A stretch of 6,477 bases of DNA from NCBI GenBank assembly GCA_021828345.1, contig JAJZJI010000067.1:1-6477 (forward strand), read 5' to 3'. The translations under genes were made by a program, and so were the position numbers. A model generated the notes under the pieces. That model saw nothing but the letters and a program-made list of their open reading frames with translations. It was not told the origin of the DNA and did no database searches. This DNA is from Microcaldota archaeon (GTDB taxonomy: Archaea > Micrarchaeota > Micrarchaeia > Micrarchaeales > Micrarchaeaceae). Position 1 is the first letter of the stretch, and each line of letters starts with the position of its first letter. Shown here one piece after another: positions 2,220 to 3,737 of this stretch.

Positions 2220-3206
2220 TTGATTTGTCAATGCTTGTCTTAGCAACATGTTCACCGATTGAATGGCGTTCCCCTCCAATTCGAGTAGATTTGAAAGCCC
2301 ATAGGCGGCCCTTGCACGTATATCTTCAAGTTTAAAATGCGACAATGCCATGCCATCTCTAAATACCTCCACTAATTTATCATCGCCATTATCTTTTTGC
2401 TGCAAAGTAGCGTATGTTCCATCATTTCTTAGGATAAGTTTTAGCTTCCCTATTTTAGAGACCTTGCCAGAATCGGTAATGGGATCTTTAAAGACGCCAC
2501 GCTCTTCTCCTCTGATAGTTATATTGGAACATTTAAATGCAAAGCGCTGGCTATCACGATTAAGTTTTTGTAATAATCCGCCACCCATACCAAACGCAAC
2601 ATTATCAACAGACCATCCCGCGCCCTCCATTGCATTTAATATGCGCCGTGTGGATGAATATTCTATACCATCTCCTTGTATGACCCGTATTTGTGGAGGA
2701 AGCAATTTATATCCTTTTACATTTTTTGTAAAACCAAATTTATCTGCAAGTAAATTTAGTACTTCTACTACCACTTTTTCGGGTGTCCCGGAATCTGGCC
2801 TAACAATTACAGTACCTTGTCTACTCAAAACTTTTTGCTTTAATTCGTCTCCCCAGATATTGCTGCATGCATTATATATATCATACGAATCGGATACAAC
2901 AGCTACTAGACCATTGGGAAATTGTGTCAACATATTTTCCATCGCCTTTGCTTCATTTTCTCTTCCCCAAGACGTAATTGTAGAGTGTTCAGCCGCAGGT
3001 ATAGAGAATCCCGCCATATCAGCATCATAATATCTGCGCAGCATCATAAGCCCAGCTATTGTGTCAGTGCCCTTGAAATTGACCAAATGCGCAGCGCCAC
3101 CAAGCGCTGCAGATTCTACAGAGGATACACCACGAAAACCGAAATCGTGCAATTTGAATTCTATTTGTGTTGGATCACCTGTCTGTTCTAGTTTTTCTAG
3201 TAGCAT
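2214..3206 (-). CDS. Nicotinamide phosphoribosyltransferase, C-terminal piece (in-frame split)
   Basis: This 330-residue piece carries most of the Nampt catalytic core, which makes NMN and pyrophosphate from nicotinamide and PRPP. Compared with human NAMPT as I remember it, HDFGFRG (20-26) contains F22 and R25 (human F193, R196), D48 of GTDT equals D219, and H74 of AAEHST equals the phosphorylated H247. D106 of SDSYD equals D279, R136/D138 of RPDSG equal R311/D313, D179 of QGDG equals D354, and GGGLLQK (208-214) is the PRPP glycine loop. None of these is lost. The sequence is collinear with the family from its first residue, which falls inside a helix, so it is not an independent domain start. 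The piece is in the same frame as the upstream one, with only TAA and AAG between them, and no Shine-Dalgarno sequence precedes its ATG. The C-terminus is roughly 20 residues longer than human. It is either a subunit made by reinitiation or the distal part of a nonsense-interrupted gene. Confidence 0.92.
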   Translation of the reverse strand: MLLEKLEQTGDPTQIEFKLHDFGFRGVSSVESAALGGAAHLVNFKGTDTIAGLMMLRRYYDADMAGFSIPAAEHSTITSWGRENEAKAMENMLTQFPNGLVAVVSDSYDIYNACSNIWGDELKQKVLSRQGTVIVRPDSGTPEKVVVEVLNLLADKFGFTKNVKGYKLLPPQIRVIQGDGIEYSSTRRILNAMEGAGWSVDNVAFGMGGGLLQKLNRDSQRFAFKCSNITIRGEERGVFKDPITDSGKVSKIGKLKLILRNDGTYATLQQKDNGDDKLVEVFRDGMALSHFKLEDIRARAAYGLSNLLELEGNAIQSVNMLLRQALTNQG

Positions 3207-3209
3207 CTT

Positions 3210-3737
3210 TTACATATGCATTGATAATGTCGCAACGGTTATTGGATACCACGTTTGTACAAGCAGAGTCTCTAAATAATTTGTAAGCCAATAACAGTTC
3301 GGATCTGTATTTTCTATTGTTATTAATACATTACTTACTGGAACCACAGTACCTTCAGGTACGGACCGTATAGAAACTGGCAATTTACCATCATATTCTT
3401 TTAATATGTACTCCCACCCTTTGCGATTGAACAAATTTTTATCGCTTAGATGCTTACTTACTATATACTCTGCTTCGTCTATTGCCTCTTTATTAACCAC
3501 GTTCCCTTCTAGATATTTTTTGATAAAATATTGAAGGCCAAAAAATACAACTTCAGGAAATTCTCCGCCCCTTGATTCAAAATAGGAGTATACTTTTTCT
3601 GTTCCTGGAGGATATTGCTTCCAATGGGTTAATTTATAGCTATCAGTTAAGAGCAGTATATTTCTATCTATATCTATTTGTTTGGTATTTTCTTTGTTAG
3701 TTATATTTCCATCATATACTATTTTATCTTTCCACAT
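3210..3737 (-). CDS. Nicotinamide phosphoribosyltransferase, N-terminal piece (in-frame split)
   Basis: The first gene of the NAD operon encodes the 175-residue N-terminal part of Nampt. [17 protein letters not shown] (29-45) holds D32 and Y34, equivalent to human D16 and Y18, which reach into the active site of the partner subunit in the dimer. [13 protein letters not shown] (48-60), [12 protein letters not shown] (65-76), [11 protein letters not shown] (126-136), [12 protein letters not shown] (142-153) and [10 protein letters not shown] (161-170) follow family order without gaps. The piece ends LSMHM then TAA at 3212-3210, in the middle of a helix that is continuous in intact homologues; the frame resumes directly in the next ORF. 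The N-terminus is about 16 residues longer than human. Apart from the penultimate codon region there is no internal Met, so the ATG at 3737 is the likely start. Together the two pieces total 505 residues, close to the usual 460-500. Confidence 0.92.

Follow-up and report, generated by a model that had tools for sequence, protein, structure and literature searches.

A single in-frame TAA divides the NAMPT gene of a Micrarchaeota contig into two otherwise preserved pieces

Results

The stretch of DNA analysed here (the window, 6,477 nucleotides of contig JAJZJI010000067.1 from a Microcaldota archaeon) carries on its minus strand a NAMPT gene in a single frame, running from an ATG at 3737 to a TGA at 2214 and interrupted by one TAA at 3210–3212. 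The minus strand from 3227 to 3201 reads TTATCAATGCATATGTAAAAGATGCTA, and the sequence-only reading, which had described a NAMPT gene split by one in-frame stop with the second open reading frame beginning one codon further on, is borne out in sequence, frame and coordinates. All parts of the gene lie on this strand. The N-terminal ORF (3210..3737) starts at the ATG at 3737 and encodes 175 aa followed by the TAA, an AAG codon (3207..3209) separates the stop from a second ATG (3204–3206), and from there the C-terminal ORF (2214..3206) continues in the same frame for 330 aa and ends with the TGA.

Domain searches assign the N piece to NAMPT_N (E=5.3e-43, profile positions 1–98 of 98 covered) and the C piece to NAPRTase (E=1.9e-59, positions 1–222 of 239 covered). 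The NCBIfam model NF006629 matches with its positions 3–152 in the N piece and 160–462 in the C piece, a spacing that corresponds to an ungapped join, and on comparison with human NAMPT the counts taken from the two sides of the junction differ by one residue; the two pieces are thus collinear with at most one residue of insertion or deletion, as had been claimed. The active-site motifs TDSYK, KLHDFG.RG, GTDT, EHST, SDSYD, RPDSG, QGDG and GGGLLQ are found, distributed across both pieces, and they agree with the earlier statement that the catalytic residues are preserved, given the choice of NAMPT motifs and the roles of their residues that we presume here. Compared with NAMPT/NadV (PF18127 + PF04095; human NAMPT, PDB 8tm7, 2gvg), the window shares both domains, the motifs and their order, and differs by the one in-frame TAA that parts the reading frames of the two domains. 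Judged by these matches the gene is an ordinary NAMPT with both domains, predicted to convert nicotinamide and PRPP to NMN, although the TAA at 3210–3212 means that it does not encode one continuous polypeptide.

The N piece begins with an extension (3693–3737) that reaches 15 residues beyond the NAMPT of two Micrarchaeota MAG loci, L001 and L002, and is modelled with low confidence. Base composition differs between the pieces, with a GC content of 0.41 (GC3 0.32) in the C piece (2214–3206) and of 0.33 in the N piece; the seven further ORFs of the window for which it was determined range from 0.26 to 0.33.

Downstream of NAMPT on the minus strand lie two intact genes, for a nicotinamide-nucleotide adenylyltransferase of archaeal type (1689..2207; the best NCBIfam matches fall short of the curated cut-offs, while Pfam CTP_transf_like exceeds its own) and for a Nudix hydrolase (1116..1655; identified by domain searches). 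A divergent AbrB/MazE-N-type regulator that ends in TAA is encoded on the plus strand (3849..4721) and is 46% identical to the neighbour of NAMPT at L001. Elsewhere in the window, 5082–5990 encodes an RNase H-superfamily domain with a tail that by eye is Cys-rich and zinc-ribbon-like, the true start probably lying inside the ORF, and an overlapping ORF of 121 aa (5006–5371) is probably spurious. A 174-aa protein (497–1021) has, by eye, one likely transmembrane segment and an Asn-rich region; it matches no Pfam family above cut-off, the weak DUF2807 match having an E of 0.016.

The arrangement of divergent AbrB-like regulator, NAMPT and downstream gene resembling NMN adenylyltransferase recurs across Micrarchaeota genomes. 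At L001 and L002 the NAMPT genes are 66–67% identical to that of the window, with an AbrB-like regulator adjoining and an NMN-adenylyltransferase-like gene downstream. A third locus, L012, from a genome related to that of L001, also has the regulator next door, and shares with the window an archaeal-type NMN adenylyltransferase (32% identical) situated one gene further on. Unlike the window, all three have NAMPT in one frame (473 aa at L001 and L002, 491 aa at L012). The gene that follows NAMPT at L001 (4918–5424) and L002 (4922–5428) best matches a NadR-type model, below cut-off, whereas that of the window is of the archaeal type, so that these loci appear to differ by a swap of the adenylyltransferase partner. 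Between NAMPT and the adenylyltransferase gene at L012 lies a 228-aa ankyrin-repeat ORF (2437–3123; Ank_4 E 2.2e-21). NAMPT, its neighbours and the gene order, rather than marker genes, point to Micrarchaeota as the probable origin of the window, whose NAMPT gene probably belongs to a putative NAD-salvage operon.

The column occupied by the stop was examined in 129 aligned relatives, made up of 112 database proteins of at least 430 aa (among the top 120 hits listed) and 17 genome loci; these overlap in part, with some from the same species, and are not independent. The alignment excludes L033, L034 and L035, and the conservation ranks given below exclude L029 and L032. Lys occupies the column in 119 relatives, Arg in 9 and Gly in 1, so that it is Lys or Arg in 128/129 (among the 17 genome loci, 15 have Lys and 2 Arg). 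The 12 columns around the stop are free of gaps in all 129, and no residue is gained or lost at the junction. In a predicted model of the protein with the stop read as Lys (mean pLDDT 90.1), which matches chain A of human NAMPT 8tm7 with TM scores of 0.87/0.95 at 53% identity, the stop is residue 176 and falls inside a 36-residue helix (151–186), where the block pLDDT is 96–97. The break is therefore situated mid-helix in the predicted model, not at a loop or domain boundary, and the proposal that the TAA sits within a helix where Lys is usual holds.

The sixth codon after the TAA encodes Lys in the window, a residue seen there in 0/129 relatives (Tyr in 78, His in 15, Phe in 14, Ser in 13, Ala in 5, and single others). 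This unusual Lys may mark a change at the junction, although as a sign it stands alone. Met occurs at the column of the second ATG in 9/129 relatives, and for a random codon of the NAMPT gene an in-frame ATG follows within the next two codons at 4.5% of positions (10.8% if ATG, GTG and TTG are all allowed). Because of both this chance frequency and the relatives with Met at the column, the restart ATG is unremarkable when taken alone.

The search of related genomes for the same split, which the sequence-only reading had suggested, was run with the full-length query against 301 genomes of the Micrarchaeota phylum. Nineteen have a NAMPT, of which 18 span the junction (16 full-length and 2 cut by contig ends) and one ends at a contig edge before it; the remaining 282 gave no match, their completeness not being stated. 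An in-frame stop is present in 0/18 of the genomes that span the junction, a comparison that covers relatives no closer than about 68% identical in the C piece and so lies above population level. Nor is there a stop within NAMPT in any of the 16 genomes that matched among the 398 searched in the phylum of a Hyphomicrobiales MAG. That MAG is the third of the three genome matches to the C piece, at 52% identity; the nearest two are Candidatus Micrarchaeota MAGs at 65%, and the best non-self protein match is 68% identical. Two apparent exceptions were set aside, namely a TGA inside the alignment to the genome that carries L012, where the 491-aa ORF is intact and the alignment most likely overran the gene end into its own terminator, and an apparently short NAMPT in another genome (G080), which is cut by contig ends. 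More distant NAMPT relatives occur on three viral contigs (47–56% identity) and in phage records (1911 records with a match, all below 60% identity).

Database fragments were also compared with the position of the stop. Among the 119 other N-terminal-sized hits listed as best of a search total of 1002, 7 have their last residue between positions -6 and +4 relative to the stop column, with no clear enrichment over neighbouring bins. A 304-aa C-terminal NAMPT fragment (P0160, starting MKKEII, on a contig of 2264 nt) starts with Met at the junction helix, reflecting either a contig end or a second split, and a 154-aa protein (P0003) begins or ends at the junction, where contig end and stop are indistinguishable. 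The 90% cluster of the C piece (P0121) has two member sequences from one contig; the second could be the split piece recorded independently, or it could stem from a further gene call on the contig. Titles and abstract openings of the papers listed (ten at most for each search) yielded no split NAMPT, and no paper was found that joins NAMPT and Micrarchaeota.

Conservation provides further insights into the age of the stop. At columns conserved in at least 90% of sequences the C piece deviates at 2/119, with 43/128 sequences deviating less, and the N piece deviates at 3/63, with 102/128 deviating less. With the threshold raised to 97%, deviations number 1/81 in the C piece (96/128 deviate less, median 0) and 1/29 in the N piece (108/128 deviate less). 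No second stop or frameshift is present in the 990 nt of the C piece, in which 4.1% of single-base changes would create a stop. A simple model takes 75% of neutral changes to alter a residue and sets 2 deviations as the baseline. For the time since translation was lost, it gives joint probabilities of 0.01 for 0.02 neutral substitutions per site and of 0.03 for 0.015, so that under these assumptions any value above about 0.02 is rejected. The claim that the gene does not look decayed thus stands for the distal piece, but from its lack of a clear excess of change it follows only that the stop arose very recently, that it is an error, or that the distal piece is still translated.

No Shine-Dalgarno sequence precedes the ATG of the C-terminal ORF (+0.8 kcal/mol against the anti-SD sequence that we take to apply), and a strong one is found at only 1 of the 8 ORFs tested, a GGGTGAT site (2213..2219, minus strand; duplex -9.5 kcal/mol) before the NMN adenylyltransferase gene. 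The Nudix gene scores 0.0, two ORFs score -1.9 and three lie between -3.9 and -4.7 kcal/mol, and the missing signal at the second ATG is therefore weak evidence, as the Nudix and several other ORFs of the window are also without one. The gap of +3 nt from stop to second ATG falls within the range of termination-reinitiation. There is no sign of RNA structure around the stop (162/200 shuffles fold at least as well, z=+0.89), and an Rfam search of the window finds tRNA-Val alone. TAA also ends the AbrB-like regulator, at about the homologous C-terminus, as well as the Nudix, RNase H-like and 174-aa ORFs.

Discussion

We propose that the TAA is a recent nonsense mutation or a one-base error of the contig in an ordinary one-piece NAMPT gene, a reading to which we give a probability of roughly 0.75. 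One sense codon of a one-piece NAMPT would read TAA in this contig, either because a nonsense mutation arose very recently in a strain of the sampled population or because of an error at one base. If the stop is real, the product would be a 175-aa fragment that lacks the NAPRTase domain, with at most a little C-terminal fragment from ribosomes that reinitiate at the ATG 3 nt further on. The earlier account had listed a two-subunit enzyme, stop readthrough, a recent nonsense mutation and an assembly error as explanations, and of these the last two fit best because the stop is present in none of the 18 Micrarchaeota-phylum genomes that span the junction; most likely, then, the stop is either recent or an error. 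According to passages of PMC11017572, low-coverage assembly can produce spurious internal stops. Counting against this reading are the fully intact C piece, the restart ATG 3 nt past the stop, the cluster of the C piece with its two member sequences, and the unusual Lys six codons past the stop.

A real two-subunit NAMPT would instead require that the ribosome stops at the TAA and restarts at the ATG 3 nt further on, and that the two pieces cofold so that two pairs of them form the usual dimer, which we regard as unlikely. Of the points in its favour, the earlier account is upheld only as far as the 3-nt gap allows such a restart. Parts of PMC10666635 take stop-start distances of -8 to +10 nt to predict termination-reinitiation in archaea and E. 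coli and describe gene pairs spaced this closely as often encoding subunits of a complex, and reinitiation in Haloferax volcanii does not strictly need a Shine-Dalgarno sequence according to the relevant passages of PMC6728339. The near-normal constraint on the C piece, the Lys at a column where 0/129 relatives have it, and the split genes reported in DPANN archaea (portions of PMC3655853 and PMC6349945) are likewise consistent with two subunits. Against them stand the absence of the split from every relative found (0/18 in the Micrarchaeota phylum, 0/16 in the phylum of the Hyphomicrobiales MAG), a cut in a confidently predicted helix outside any loop, and a junction with neither gained nor lost residue. 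Database fragment ends are not clearly enriched here among the best 119 other hits of 1002, and the second ATG is without the Shine-Dalgarno sequence that the next gene has, although this point is weak.

Readthrough of the TAA by a suppressor tRNA, a recoding signal or a changed code, with full-length NAMPT being made, is suggested by a frame that is open on both sides and by the replacement of a Lys/Arg column. However, termination of the regulator by TAA near its homologous end argues against a changed code, three further ORFs use the same terminator, the downstream RNA shows no structure, and tRNA-Val is the only tRNA within the window (the rest of the genome lying outside the search), so that of the four listed explanations this one lacks support and we consider it very improbable. 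An established pseudogene, in which NAMPT has been lost in the lineage and is decaying, would account for the in-frame stop, and the 282/301 genomes with no match (completeness not stated) suggest that NAMPT may be dispensable or patchy in the Micrarchaeota phylum. Yet the C piece has acquired neither a further stop or frameshift in 990 nt nor a clear excess of change at conserved columns, and the NMN adenylyltransferase and Nudix genes beside it look undamaged, which makes long-standing decay scarcely credible.

Known systems provide partial parallels. DPANN archaea, including Micrarchaeota, have split genes whose origin is debated (as set out in parts of PMC6349945), and like the window, Nanoarchaeum and other DPANN have proteins that are usually made from one gene encoded in two (PMC3655853 and PMC6349945, in the sections concerned). 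In a table of Nanoarchaeota split genes (PMC3655853) the halves mostly carry distant locus tags and several of the split sites are common to more than one species, whereas in the window the halves are adjacent and in frame, with one codon changed and in one contig only. Archaeal termination-reinitiation pairs share with the window, where it is +3 nt, a very short stop-start distance (passages of PMC6728339 and PMC10666635), although such pairs most often overlap by 4 or 1 nt (PMC10666635, in part), and half or more of the overlapping pairs in most groups have a Shine-Dalgarno sequence (PMC6728339, in part), unlike the junction described here. It is conceivable, though doubtful, that this is a two-subunit NAMPT freshly split within one helix in an archaeon of reduced genome and made by termination-reinitiation, representing a first step of gene fission at which the junction has yet to evolve a translation signal.

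On the reading that we favour, a wrong base or a nonsense allele of recent date, the locus would be an ordinary one and would warn against taking single stops in short contigs for biology. Should the split instead be genuine and the two pieces functional, it would show how, in DPANN archaea, changing one codon can make two chains of an enzyme that had been one.
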